Shown here: piece after piece, positions 4,427 to 8,706 of the stretch | Layout of the letters: each line of letters opens with the position of its first letter | Numbering within the stretch: the stretch's first letter is position 1 | Assembly (NCBI GenBank): GCA_024655865.1 | Contig: JANLFM010000039.1 | Span: 1-8,706, forward strand | Length of the DNA: 8,706 bases | From: Caldisericota bacterium | GTDB taxonomy: Bacteria; Caldisericota; JANLFM01 | Reading direction: 5' to 3' | The notes under the pieces: model-generated | The model's input: only the letters and a program-made list of their open reading frames with translations | Told to the model about the DNA's origin: nothing | Database searches by the model: none | Program-made: the position numbers and the translations under genes

Positions 4427-4575
4427 TGAAAGCTACGGAAAGAGAACTTACCTAACTTTTAGTTGAGTAAGCCAGCTTAAACAGAGATCAGGATTAAGAA
4501 ATACGGTCCAAGGGTTCGATGAGAGGAAGCATTGGTTGCGGCATAAAGGGAATGGCACAATTCTCTTTACGCTAC
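4427..4575 (+). pseudogene. IS256 transposase C-terminal remnant with terminal repeat
   Basis: The sequence gaaagctacggaaagagaac (4429-4448) encodes ESYGKRT of the intact enzyme. After frame breaks, the frame from 4482 reads EIRIKKYGPRVR, a stop codon, then EEALVAA and stop. The intact protein ends with EKIRNEKYGTRVQSEEALVEV. The terminal repeat follows at 4553-4575. It is probably the far end of the same element as the remnant at 3822-3965. Directly after it, the frame of the recombinase pseudogene begins (KSQAEVTNEDVKDH). Confidence 0.8.
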
Positions 4576-4576
4576 C

Positions 4577-5190
4577 GAAGAGCCAGGCAGAAGTTACTAA
4601 CGAAGACGTGAAGGATCACCTTTTTATCTTGCTGAGAGAAAAGAAGGTCTCATGTCTCAAGTTGGAATATTGCTATTTTCGTTATAAATGCTTAAAGTTT
4701 TACTAAGGTGAGGCCTTGAAGCAGGATTACGTATATGAGATACGAAGACCGAAAAAAGACAAGAAGCTGCCTGTTGTGCTGAGGGGAGAAGAGGTTGGGA
4801 GGTTTTTAGCCTCAGTTATCAACATCAAACGCAAGGCAATTCTGACGCTTACTTATTCTGCCGGATTGAGAGTAGGCGAGGCCGTAAAATTGAAAGTAGA
4901 TCCGGGAGCACAACCAGATAAACACATGCCTGCAAGGGAAGCGCAAGCAATCTTTGAGAATGCTTACAAGAAAGTAGTCATAACAAAAGATGTAAGCATT
5001 CATTCATTAAGGCACAGTTTTTGCCACGCACCTCTTAGGAAGCGGTACAGATCTGCGGCATATTCAGAAACGATTGGGGCACAAGAGCAGTAAGACGACT
5101 GAGATTTGCACCCACGTGAGCAACAAAGACCTAAGTAAAATGAAAAGTCCCCTGGATTTCTTATCTCTTCAAGGAGGTGAATCGAAGTGA
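4577..5190 (+). pseudogene. Tyrosine recombinase / integron-type integrase, inactivated
   Basis: Remains of a tyrosine site-specific recombinase. In order: EVTNEDVKDHL (end of the core-binding domain); a stop codon TAA at 4704-4706 where the family has a Tyr (KFY*GE); RRPKKDKKLPVVL; TYSAGLRVGEAVKLKV with catalytic Arg I; an apparent deletion of roughly 50 or more codons near 4900; and IFENAYKK...[10 protein letters not shown] with the H-x-x-R pair. The frame is broken in the T-run at 5018-5022. In the shifted frame it continues as [22 protein letters not shown], then [13 protein letters not shown] and KSPLDFL. The catalytic Tyr of T-x-I-Y-T-H-V is Cys (TGC, 5107-5109). The 5' end is cut by the IS256 remnant. 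The gene points toward the cassette boundary at 5306, the reverse of classical integrons. Confidence 0.9.
5171..5180 (+). promoter_or_regulatory. Near-perfect Shine-Dalgarno site at the integrase 3' end
   Basis: AAGGAGGTGA complements the 16S rRNA 3' end over ten bases. It ends 9 bases before the ATG at 5190. It also lies inside the last codons of the recombinase pseudogene (LQGGESK), so part of it could be coincidental coding sequence. It would drive the small frame at 5190-5351. Confidence 0.6.
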
Positions 5191-5351
5191 TGAACACGCA
5201 CAGTTCCAGAAAAACAAGTTTATCACCCAAAGGGGCGGATAGACAAAATATTTCATCCATATGCCTAAATCGGAATAATATGCTAAATATTGCGTATATG
5301 AACAAGTTAGCCGCAATTGGGCTCGCTATTGTGGAATCTCGACATGATTAA
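5190..5351 (+). CDS. Small ORF (53 aa) spanning the attI/cassette joint
   Basis: The frame begins MNTHSSRKTSLSPKG and ends VESRHD. Its ATG shares one base with the recombinase stop codon (TGATG), and a ten-base Shine-Dalgarno match lies at 5171-5180. It crosses the cassette boundary at 5306/5307. It ends with TAA at 5349-5351, 8 bases into the cassette gene that starts at 5344. The peptide has no recognisable domain. The layout recalls ORF-11 of attI1 in class 1 integrons, a short frame with a good ribosome site whose translation boosts the first cassette gene. It may have no product of its own and serve only to bring ribosomes to the cassette gene, whose own upstream region has only a weak site. 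Short length leaves real doubt. Confidence 0.45.
   Translation: MNTHSSRKTSLSPKGADRQNISSICLNRNNMLNIAYMNKLAAIGLAIVESRHD
5191..5306 (+). other. Candidate attI (integron attachment region)
   Basis: This 116-bp AT-rich stretch lies between the recombinase stop and the first cassette boundary. It ends with the G of GTTAGCC (5306-5312). It contains clustered AT-rich part-palindromes (aaaatattt near 5246, catatg near 5259, atatgctaaatattgcgtatatg at 5278-5300) that could be recombinase binding sites. Its position is what the integron model predicts for attI, but attI sites have little sequence conservation, so the call rests on position and the boundary heptamer. Confidence 0.45.
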
Positions 5352-6792
5352 TCCGTTCAAGCAATCGAAGGGATTCCAGGAACCGCAGATTCGCAAAATC
5401 CCGAGCATTAGAAAAATGCTTGAGGAGATGACGAATTTCGTCGCGATCAAGCGGGCATTCCCTTTGATTAAACCGTTTCTGAGGTTGCTAAAGGTCGACG
5501 TGAACAGAATCGAGGACGCTTTGGCGCGCGTAGATGAGCTTGCCGAGCAAGCACAAAAATTGACCTCGATCCCGGATCGCTTCAACGACCACTTCGCAGA
5601 GCGCGGCTGGATCATTTTCGATCGCATGAATCTGGAGGTCGCCGAGAATGCCGTCCAGAAAGCCGATGCCGGTGATCTCGATAGCGCTGAGGCGGACTTG
5701 GTGGACTACTATTCTCCCGAGACGGTCAAGGGGCACCTCATGGCCATGCGTGCTATCCGTGCCTTCCGCCCGCGGATGCGGCTAGCAGAGAAAGCGCTGG
5801 AGGATTACGAGGCAGAGCGATACCACGGGTGTGTTCCTGTCGTGCTCGCGCTCACCGACGGGTTGGTAAACGAGCTTCATCAGCAGCGGCGGGGTTTCTT
5901 TGCCAAGGACGTGGACCTGAAGGCGTGGGACTCAATCGCAGCACATAGCAAAGGGTTGGGTAAGCTTACACATGTCCTTCAGAAAAGGCGCTGCAAAACG
6001 ACCACTGACCCGATCACCATCCCGTACCGCAACGGCATTTTGCATGGGATGGATCTTGGTTACGACAATCGGATGGTGGCGGCGAAGGCGTGGGCGACCC
6101 TCTTTGCGGTGCGAGATTGGGCGATCAGGGCCGAACAAGGTCTCCTTGAGGCTCAACCTGAAGAGCCAAGCCCGTCGTGGCGTGAAGTTCTCAAGCGGGT
6201 TCGCGAAAACGCAGAAGAAAAGGCAAGACTACAACAATGGAAGCCGCGCCACATCCAGCTCGGCCGCGATGTGCCGGCGTCTGGAGCACCCGATGCCTAT
6301 CCGGAGGGGACACCAGAGCGGAAACTTGCGGAGTATCTGGACTACTGGAAGAAGAGGAATTTTGGCTTTATGGCGCGGTGTATCGCTCCAACCTTTGGTC
6401 CACCGCCCAAAATTGCTCCTGCGCGCGTGAGAGAGGAATTCGAGCGCAAGAAATTAATCTCCTTCGAAATGAAAGAGATTCACGACGAGGCGGCTGCAAT
6501 CACGGTCATCGACACAAAACTCCAATTTGAAGTTGATGGACAGCCGACCGAGACGCAGCTCGCCTTTCGGCTTGTGAATTCAGATAAAGGCAGCCGCCCG
6601 GCAACGAGAGGAAAACCCGGCAGTGAGTGGGGGCTTGTTTTCTGGTCCGTCTCTTAAGCCACTAACAGGGCTGTGCTGCCAGCGAGCCCGACAGCGGCTA
6701 ACAGCCGCGTTTACGCTGCGCCCGCCTGCGGAGGGATCGCCCTCCGGGAACGGCCTCCGATTCGCTTCGGCCGTTTGTAAACGCCGGAATCG
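5307..6792 (+). mobile_element. Integron gene cassette (1486 bp)
   Basis: The segment starts with TTAGCC, completing the core site GTTAGCC at 5306-5312, and ends with the G of the next core site GTTATAT at 6792-6798. In integron cassettes the 5' heptamer is complementary to the first core box of the cassette's own attC. Here GGCTAAC at 6696-6702 is the exact reverse complement of GTTAGCC. Excision between 5306/5307 and 6792/6793 would give a circle with a complete attC. One gene nearly fills it, in the standard orientation, with the attC 38 bases after its stop codon. All of this is typical of cassettes. Confidence 0.75.
5344..6657 (+). CDS. Cassette-encoded HEPN-motif protein, putative RNase/defence effector
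   Basis: This 437-residue soluble protein has no signal peptide or membrane helix. Residues 229-235 read RNGILHG, the R-N-x3-H active-site pattern of HEPN ribonucleases. They sit between two predicted helical stretches: YHGCVPVVLALTDGLVNEL (160-178) and DNRMVAAKAWATLFAVRDWA (about 239-258), as expected for a HEPN bundle. The N-terminal part (1-150) looks helical. A separate C-terminal part (about 320-437; LAEYLDYWKKRNFGFMARC, ITVIDTKLQFEVDGQ, ending WGLVFWSVS) looks like a small alpha/beta barrel, perhaps NTF2-like. HEPN proteins are common in toxin, abortive-infection and other RNA-cleaving systems; that role here is inference. The ATG at 5344 is chosen; a TTG at 5317 would add nine residues. 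Codons are distinctly GC-rich compared with the next gene. Confidence 0.7.
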   Translation: MINPFKQSKGFQEPQIRKIPSIRKMLEEMTNFVAIKRAFPLIKPFLRLLKVDVNRIEDALARVDELAEQAQKLTSIPDRFNDHFAERGWIIFDRMNLEVAENAVQKADAGDLDSAEADLVDYYSPETVKGHLMAMRAIRAFRPRMRLAEKALEDYEAERYHGCVPVVLALTDGLVNELHQQRRGFFAKDVDLKAWDSIAAHSKGLGKLTHVLQKRRCKTTTDPITIPYRNGILHGMDLGYDNRMVAAKAWATLFAVRDWAIRAEQGLLEAQPEEPSPSWREVLKRVRENAEEKARLQQWKPRHIQLGRDVPASGAPDAYPEGTPERKLAEYLDYWKKRNFGFMARCIAPTFGPPPKIAPARVREEFERKKLISFEMKEIHDEAAAITVIDTKLQFEVDGQPTETQLAFRLVNSDKGSRPATRGKPGSEWGLVFWSVS

Positions 6793-6798
6793 TTATAT
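6696..6798 (+). other. attC recombination site of the cassette
   Basis: Parts in order: R'' box GGCTAAC (6696-6702); L'' box GCGTTTAC (6707-6714); a structured centre with the hairpin GGAGGG-atcg-CCCTCC (6730-6745) and the arms cggcc/ggccg (6751-6755, 6768-6772); L' box GTAAACGC (6777-6784), an exact complement of L''; a 7-base spacer; then the R' box GTTATAT (6792-6798), of which all but the first G belongs to the next unit. The span of about 100 bp is within the normal attC range. With the cassette's own 5' end, R' would be GTTAGCC, fully complementary to R''. As a single strand it should fold into the hairpin that integron integrases use. Confidence 0.75.
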
Positions 6799-6816
6799 GA
6801 AATCGCTCGTCAGTTC

Positions 6817-6822
6817 AGGAGG
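6817..6822 (+). promoter_or_regulatory. Strong ribosome binding site facing a non-standard start
   Basis: AGGAGG lies 8 bases before ATT (6831-6833), which is in frame with the PsbP-like gene. It lies 20 bases before the first conventional start, GTG at 6843. Either ATT is used, or ATG mutated to ATT. A decoy frame, MKSLVSSGGFQD, starts at the ATG at 6797 immediately after the cassette boundary and ends at 6835. Confidence 0.55.
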
Positions 6823-6842
6823 GTTTCAAGATTAAGAAGAGA

Positions 6843-7751
6843 GTGAGTGAAGACATAAGGTATGCCAGCTATACCAGCAGTAAATTAGGATTCTCCATAT
6901 CTATTCCCTCAAATTGGGAAGTAAACGAGGATAGATTGGAAGCAGAACCAGGACCTGGCTGGGAAGAGGTCTATAAGCATTTTGGCCAGGCTTTCCCGGA
7001 TTCTACCATGACTTTGGAAGAGTTTAAACAGCAGGTAGAACAACCACGGAGACCTGTCTCTGCTCAGGAAGCTTATAAAAAACTTCTGGAAGAGCAAAGA
7101 GCTTCTGCACTGAGCTTTGAAAAGTTCAAGAAAATATATGAAGAGGACAAGAAGAAGGCTTATAAAGCATTTTTCGAGACCTGTCTGGGCATACCGACTG
7201 ATGAGGACATTGAAAAAGAGTATGTGAGCAGAGATCTTTATGCTGAAGAAGCTTATAAGAGACTCATGGAAGACCCTGAAACTTTTCTAATAAGTTTCGA
7301 AGAGTTCGAGCAGCAATACAAAGAAGAACAGGAACGTCAGAGGGAGCAGGAGAGGAAGAGGGAAAAGTTATCCCAAATGGAGGAAGGATATTTTGAAGCC
7401 TCGTCTCCTGATGATGAGAATTATCCCTCCGTGGAGGTTACTAAACTGAGGCTTACAAGGATCATGACTCCTCTGGAGTTATACCAACTGGATAAACCAA
7501 GGCCTGAAGCAGTACCGTGGGGTAATCGTCCCTCAAAAGGGATAACAGTGAATGGCCTCCAAGGGATAAAATATTACTACATATTCGATACAGGTGAGAC
7601 AAGAAACATGTCGGAGATGCCCCAATTCTTTAATATTTATCTGACAGAAGGGCAGACAGGGTGGATTATCTCTTGTTCATGTTTAGCAAAAGTTTTCCCA
7701 AAATACAAGGAAATTTTCACCAAAATAATTAGCAGTTTTCGTAGAATTTGA
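6843..7751 (+). CDS. PsbP/Mog1-like protein with internal helical repeats
   Basis: About 302 residues, no signal peptide, probably cytoplasmic. The N-terminus (KLGFSISIPSNWEV, 14-27) is the opening beta-strand pattern of PsbP/Mog1/DcrB-type folds. The C-terminus (about 195-302) fits the rest: a G-x-x-G-I-K-Y-Y-Y-I-F strand, a W-I-I-S-C-S-C strand and the end YKEIFTKIISSFRRI. Between them lie four repeats with spacing Y-x16-F-x3-Y (Y44-F61-V65, Y78-F95-Y99, Y107-I123-Y127, Y138-F155-Y159), typically EEAYKRL...SFEEFEQQY, then a charged coiled-coil (160-180). GTG at 6843 is the first standard start, but the strong ribosome site points to ATT at 6831, which would add four residues (MKKR). It directly follows the cassette boundary, so it may be a second cassette whose attC is lost. 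Much more AT-rich than the previous gene. Function unknown. Confidence 0.8.
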   Translation: MSEDIRYASYTSSKLGFSISIPSNWEVNEDRLEAEPGPGWEEVYKHFGQAFPDSTMTLEEFKQQVEQPRRPVSAQEAYKKLLEEQRASALSFEKFKKIYEEDKKKAYKAFFETCLGIPTDEDIEKEYVSRDLYAEEAYKRLMEDPETFLISFEEFEQQYKEEQERQREQERKREKLSQMEEGYFEASSPDDENYPSVEVTKLRLTRIMTPLELYQLDKPRPEAVPWGNRPSKGITVNGLQGIKYYYIFDTGETRNMSEMPQFFNIYLTEGQTGWIISCSCLAKVFPKYKEIFTKIISSFRRI

Positions 7752-8411: not shown

Positions 8412-8657
8412 AAAATTTTAAAGAGGTGAAATTGGGCGCGAAAGTGATTGGGTCATTTACACCAGCATGAGGCCGCAGAGAAGATCCTCCTTATGGTCAC
8501 GGAGATGCACGAGAGCTACGGGAAGAGGACCTTACCCAACTGGCATTTAAGTAAGCCAGCTTTAGATGAGTCCTCTCTTGGAAGTACGGGAAAAATGTCG
8601 GGTCAGAGCAAGATTGGTCGCAGTCTAAGGGGGTGACACAGTTCAGTTGATACATCT
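8412..8657 (+). pseudogene. IS256 transposase 3' remnant with terminal repeat, right end
   Basis: From about 8418 the frame reads KEVKLGAKVIGSF (intact enzyme KEVKRRAKVIESF). After a frame break it continues as EKILLMVTEMHESYGKRTLP, then NWHLSKPALD, diverging and ending at the stop at 8634-8636. The terminal repeat at 8634-8657 begins tgacacagttcag. It faces outward, like the 3' end of the intact copy at the other end of the window, so the two IS256 3' ends form an inverted pair. The first ~340 codons are missing. Confidence 0.88.
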
Positions 8658-8706
8658 ATGAAAAGGTAGCCTCTGTCAAGAGCATCCTTTCCTTTTTAAC
8701 TCTCCT
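8652..8706. repeat. 55-bp exact terminal inverted repeat, right copy
   Basis: Exact reverse complement of 1-55. Its first six bases (acatct) also form the outer end of the IS256 terminal repeat at 8634-8657; the remainder lies outside the element. See the left copy for its likely origin as an assembly-graph boundary. Confidence 0.95.

Follow-up and report, generated by a model that had tools for sequence, protein, structure and literature searches.

A probable decayed integron with an intact gene cassette and a HARP-type integrase relic in a Caldisericota bacterium

Integrons are recognised in genomes by their integrase, IntI. The question raised by a contig of a Caldisericota bacterium (JANLFM010000039.1, assembly GCA_024655865.1) is to what kind of element a cassette-like segment belongs that stands beside the remains of a different tyrosine recombinase. 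We analysed the whole stretch of 8,706 nt, referred to as the window. A preliminary description of this DNA had read positions 5306–6798 as an integron cassette; the recombinase relic, the attI, and the start of a second cassette (6793) were absent from it and are listed together with the other features in Table 1. With a probability of roughly 80%, we interpret the window as a decayed member of an integron class that has been overlooked, "HARP-integrase integrons"; its own cassette is intact and its recombinase is a pseudogene.

Table 1. Integron-related features of the window, with positions counted from its first nucleotide (↓, cut site).
Feature	Position	Strand	Details
Tyrosine recombinase relic, HARP-type/XerA-like	4548..5172	+	Reads towards the cassette, same orientation
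attI-like site, left half	5232..5306	+	Ends TTGCGTATATGAACAAG↓; insertion point between 5306 and 5307; conserved 3' of related integrases
Inverted repeat, 5' arm	5306..5327	+	Closes on 6681-6702 in circular form
Complete gene cassette 1	5307..6792	+	1486 bp; single ORF plus attC
Cassette gene	5344..6657	+	437-aa protein, uncharacterised widespread family
attC	6696..6798	+	R'' 6696-6702; L'' 6707-6714; two-armed tip; L' 6777-6784; R' 6792-6798
Probable second cassette start	6793..7751	+	TTATATGAAAT...; ORF 6843-7751

The cuts that would release the cassette were placed at 5306↓5307 and 6792↓6793. The exact heptamer complement on which the cassette reading had been built was located as described (GTTAGCC at 5306–5312, GGCTAAC at 6696–6702), and the pairing of the ends extends beyond it: GTTAGCCGC and GCGGCTAAC form 9 bp and, past a 4-nt gap, GGGCTCGCT and AGCGAGCCC pair as well, for a total of 22 nt at 86% (5306–5327 with 6681–6702). 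The cassette start had also been said to fit the R'' box of its own attC, and nine of the ten bases of the 5' decamer at 5306 indeed match that box. The chance of at least nine matches in ten at one fixed junction is p = 0.0013, the junction having been set independently by the attI alignment. Extended end complementarity was considered as a hallmark of the class and dropped, as class 1 cassettes have it also.

The attC of the window contains the perfectly complementary 8-base L boxes (GCGTTTAC and GTAAACGC) and the final core GTTATAT that had been attributed to it. In 100 dinucleotide shuffles, attC-like sites whose L boxes pair at 8/8 were expected 0.01 times per window. When the bottom strand was treated as a closed circle, the R and L stems formed with a log10 pfold of −0.41, and class 1 attCs treated alike ranged from −0.1 to −2.9; the top strand folded as well as the bottom strand. 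The bottom-strand fold proposed earlier was therefore attC-like in its circular form, but the extrahelical base looked for on the L'' side was absent: the L box is a perfect 8 bp without a bulge, and we thus term the site a variant, non-standard attC. Scoring with an attC covariance model had been suggested as well, and a model trained on 12 sites of other genomes, with the window excluded, recovered the site with 26.2 bits (E = 4.4e-4, 124 kb searched), a score below those of other sites of the class. The site carries the traits of that class, namely a match to model R1, a perfect L box and a two-armed tip. An Rfam search of the window gave no match, and BLAST of its attC against plasmids gave matches at chance level only.

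The left junction provided a view of the locus from other genomes. In a DNA search, the 69 bases ending at 5306 resembled DNA located 3' of related integrases in genomes G034 and G006, and the motif CGTATATGAAYRAG↓TTAGSCG was found directly before differing genes in the G034, G006, and G022 loci. The integron reading had been staked on the flanks of the cassette varying between homologous loci; the left junction proved to be an attI that is kept in other genomes and there precedes other genes, so that one insertion point receives differing genes in different genomes. Together with the fold and the match to a model built without the window, this supports the integron reading of 5306–6798. In most of the 17 attI loci compared, a pair of imperfect palindromes is present: the inner one stops about 8 nt short of the cut, the other lies further out, and the arm sequences vary between loci. 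The window has a palindromic attI ending GAACRAG↓TT directly 3' of the integrase relic, as in the class, with palindromes that are degenerate. Allowing at most two mismatches, the attI motif gave 14 matches in 12 of 386 genomes and a reversed control pattern gave 8; the pattern alone is therefore weak, and the case rests on its context. The pattern was not found in the viral contigs searched. On one contig (L080:552, G073:C1), a second attI-like sequence, GCAATACTGCGTGTATGAACGAG↓TTATATGACAT, was seen upstream of the first, at a distance of about 3.8 kb.

The recombinase relic has lost its N-terminus and contains an in-frame stop, an internal deletion near 4905, and a frameshift near 5022. Its patch III region is deleted, as is the HARP-like N-terminus, and the missing insert of this enzyme was therefore inferred from relatives. 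These were retrieved from the attI-motif matches and the nearest integrases, mostly in fragmented genomes and in a small sample. The intact relatives belong to six other bacterial families. HARP-type integrases are intact in L052, L111, L112, L113, L118, and L124 and incomplete or broken in three further loci (cut by a contig end in L117, frameshifted in L079, split in L050). Integrase, attI, and attC-bearing cassettes occur together in L050, L052, L079, L111, L113, L114, and L118, and the cassettes of these loci, L114 apart, were found to carry differing genes. The number of same-strand attC-like sites 3' of the integrase or attI was four in L118, three in L050, two each in L052 and L113, and one each in L079, L111, and L114; for L112, L117, and L124, the sequence ends too early for this count to be informative. 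L073 and L080 possess attI and attCs with no recognisable integrase upstream. Closure of the cassette on its own attC recurs in the relatives: the reverse complement of the first R'' decamer stands at the attI junction with 10/10 (L052, L079) or 9/10 (L114) matches, and in L118 each of three consecutive R'' decamers is exactly complementary to the junction decamer before it. In a further locus (L120, G142:C23), a cassette-like start, ACAAACAAG↓TTAGGCGACA, falls near 2250–2280 within the reading frame of a broken HARP-type integrase, which looks like the outcome of a cassette insertion at that place. Read by eye, the cargo of L050, L111, L080, and L120 includes McrB-like, HNH, DUF262-like, MNT/HEPN-like, and HATPase proteins, which suggests defence functions.

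The HARP-type enzymes differ from IntI at patch III and in their place on the tree. In an alignment of IntI1, IntIs from the phylum of G222, and nine HARP-type enzymes, the patch III position was occupied by four residues in the nine HARP-type enzymes and by a 35-residue insert in 25 IntIs. In the tree built from the core columns, the 25 IntIs clustered together (support 100/100); the HARP integrases fell into a group of six (100/99) and a group of three from family f35 (100/100), with the order among the two HARP groups and other XerA-like enzymes left without resolution. The integrases of L052 and L050 scored 222 and 199 bits against the IntI profile TIGR02249 (cut-off 265), and both lie above the NCBIfam cut-off for XerA-like recombinases (NF040815). 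The N-terminal stretch of the intact relatives resembles Pfam HARP with E = 5e-4, which is below the Pfam cut-off, and a profile of its own matches too. For the predicted structure of the L052 enzyme (pLDDT 83), the nearest structure was the Vibrio IntI–attC complex 2a3v, followed by XerA. In open-access PMC papers, preprints excluded, we found no paper on such an integrase, a silence that is weak evidence of novelty.

Among the IntIs examined, a single true IntI (L119/L131, G222:C1:54-1361, minus strand) has both the patch III insert and a HARP-like N-terminal domain, and it was placed inside the IntI group. Many other IntIs of the same phylum (L130, L142, L144–L149, and others) have open frames of 410–500 residues, compared to the usual 320–340, without a HARP match. 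In the window's own family, an IntI-like gene (L031/L056, G002:C210) is interrupted, in the stretch that separates patch III from the HxLRH motif, by tandem short repeats (LDSPQQ units), and further such repeats occur on its contig.

The attC sites of the class also differ from those linked to IntI. An unpaired base on the L'' side was found in 0/14 HARP-class sites, window included, versus 15/15 IntI-side sites. Ten of the latter stand beside a true IntI, five are class 1 attCs, and each has one such base; the bulge is present in the IntI-side attC of L107. The contrast has p = 1e-8 if sites are taken as independent, which sites from one locus are not. At least two arms above the L stem were present in 12 of the 14 HARP-class sites versus three of the 15 IntI-side sites. 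The class covariance model recovered held-out sites in L075, L080, and L073 at 41–61 bits and gave <12 bits on those loci of class 1 and of IntI to which it was applied. Across 22 genomes, it matched all 10 with an integrase or attI and three of the 12 others; seven of the 10 had given training sites, whereas G006, G096, and G228 had not, yet matched. The window's own genome had one further match (G000:C20:3689-3771), which stands behind a gene that itself follows a similar hairpin, and in G014 and G255 such sites occur with no integrase nearby. Single extrahelical bases on the R''–L'' arm have been called common to known attCs; one such base sets the strand used, and without these bases recombination persists with strand choice partly lost (PMC2727003). 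The patch III region is reported to be required for recombination in integrons (PMC9668308).

Two other origins of the segment were weighed. A canonical IntI acting in trans could have placed an ordinary, lone attC-bearing cassette at an off-target site, with the recombinase relic being unrelated. Lone cassettes without an integrase are known, and occur here too in G014, G255, and G000:C20; one relative, G139, has both kinds of integrase. We nevertheless consider such an event unlikely, since the insertion point coincides with a conserved attI-like sequence 3' of related integrases in several genomes, and the window's attC is without the extrahelical base present in every IntI-linked site examined. 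In addition, TIGR02249 over its cut-off was found in none of 54 genomes of the window's phylum and, among the 13 genomes with a HARP-type integrase or attI, in G139 alone, with the complete genome G313 likewise negative.

It is very improbable that the segment is no integron cassette at all, whether a terminator-like hairpin with a chance 7-base match or a transposon spanning 5306–6702 with terminal inverted repeats. IS remnants are abundant in the region, the contig ends in 59-nt inverted repeats next to an IS256/Mutator-type transposase, and the 22-nt inverted repeat (86%) is similar to the short termini of transposons. However, class 1 cassettes have the same extended end complementarity, the ORF of the cassette is not a transposase, and neither the covariance-model match nor the rarity of 8/8 L pairing in shuffled sequence fits this explanation. 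Closure at the attI junction and the recurrence of this layout around other genes in further loci speak against it too, and the homologous loci already contradict it.

The cassette gene and the remainder of the window were examined separately. The cassette protein belongs to a family present in many bacteria and some archaea. It had no significant match in Pfam or NCBIfam; its C-terminus gave weak matches to NTF2-like folds, and its helical part gave no convincing fold match. An invariant R-x4-H in RNGI-HGMDLGYDN recalls HEPN ribonucleases, judging by eye. Homologs of the protein were considered as evidence of mobility and set aside, since a simple ungapped scan of 22 homolog loci found no comparable attC beside the gene, which is therefore not visibly cassette-bound elsewhere. 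In two Methanothrix genomes (L006, L011), similar inverted stretches, around GAAGTTATTGT...GCTTAGG and CCTCTAAGCACAACAATTTTCTT, lie on either side of the homolog gene, perhaps reflecting another way of moving. The start of the probable second cassette was also weighed as the right-hand part of an unoccupied attI, a reading that was dropped because it is also found after other attCs (L052, L111). The right-flank gene, sought in the other 53 genomes of the phylum for an empty site, was absent from them. No attC for the second cassette was found before IS-like sequence begins at ~7801. Positions 1–59 and 8648–8706 are near-perfect 59-nt inverted repeats adjoining the IS256/Mutator-type transposase; as the contig ends in these IS-side repeats, its assembly stopped at IS copies.

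Compared to known systems, HARP-integrase integrons share with canonical integrons (class 1 and chromosomal) circularly permuted one-ORF cassettes, an R''-L''-L'-R' attC, the G↓TT junction, a cassette 5' end that closes on its own R'' box, and an attI beside a tyrosine recombinase. Unlike in canonical integrons, the integrase is without patch III, lies outside the IntI clade, has a HARP-like N-terminus, and is co-oriented with the cassettes, and the attCs are without an extrahelical base and mostly two-armed. The reverse-orientation integrons of Treponema and other Spirochaetota also have the integrase gene in the cassette direction, but their enzymes are counted as IntI (PMC9668308) and so presumably have patch III. 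XerA-type recombinases (NF040815) have the catalytic core of the HARP-type integrases; the chromosomal XerA acts on dif-like sites to resolve dimers (PMC8371274), whereas the HARP-type enzymes adjoin attI and cassettes and bear the HARP-like domain. Like a CALIN or a single attC without integrase, the window has an attC cassette and no recognisable IntI, and tools that require IntI would file it there; it differs in having a non-IntI integrase relic with its attI.

The namesake HARP domain, that of SMARCAL1, binds DNA fork junctions. We infer that members of the class are active in recombination, with the HARP integrase as the acting enzyme. Such an enzyme would combine a HARP-like N-terminal domain with an XerA-like core, be without the IntI patch III insert, and be encoded in the orientation of the cassettes, with an attI of two palindromes and GAACRAG↓TT directly 3' of its gene. 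In the manner of IntI systems, one of the two strands of the circular cassette would fold; the enzyme would use this one folded strand and most likely, as IntI does, cut between G and TT and join the folded attC to the double-stranded attI. Replication would then resolve the product, again on the IntI analogy, and a cassette array would be built up. In this scheme, patch III and the extrahelical base would go together, and the HARP-like domain would take over recognition of the folded site by aiding the binding of folded DNA. More tentatively, at somewhat less than even odds, the class may represent a second biochemical form of integron recombination, in which an XerA-like enzyme with a HARP-like domain acts on folded, two-armed attCs lacking the L'' base, patch III and the extrahelical base are a matched pair that has been dispensed with, and the HARP module reads the single-strand/double-strand junction.

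The proposed class would have an enzyme lacking what is taken to define integron integrases, and folded sites lacking a feature taken to be universal. With patch III and the extrahelical base both absent, the evolution of attC strand choice can be tested directly, and the presence of a HARP-like domain both in the class and in one true IntI (L119) bears on the origin of integrons. If a patch-III-free enzyme does run cassette arrays, some "integrase-less" attC clusters in uncultured phyla would have an integrase that current searches miss.
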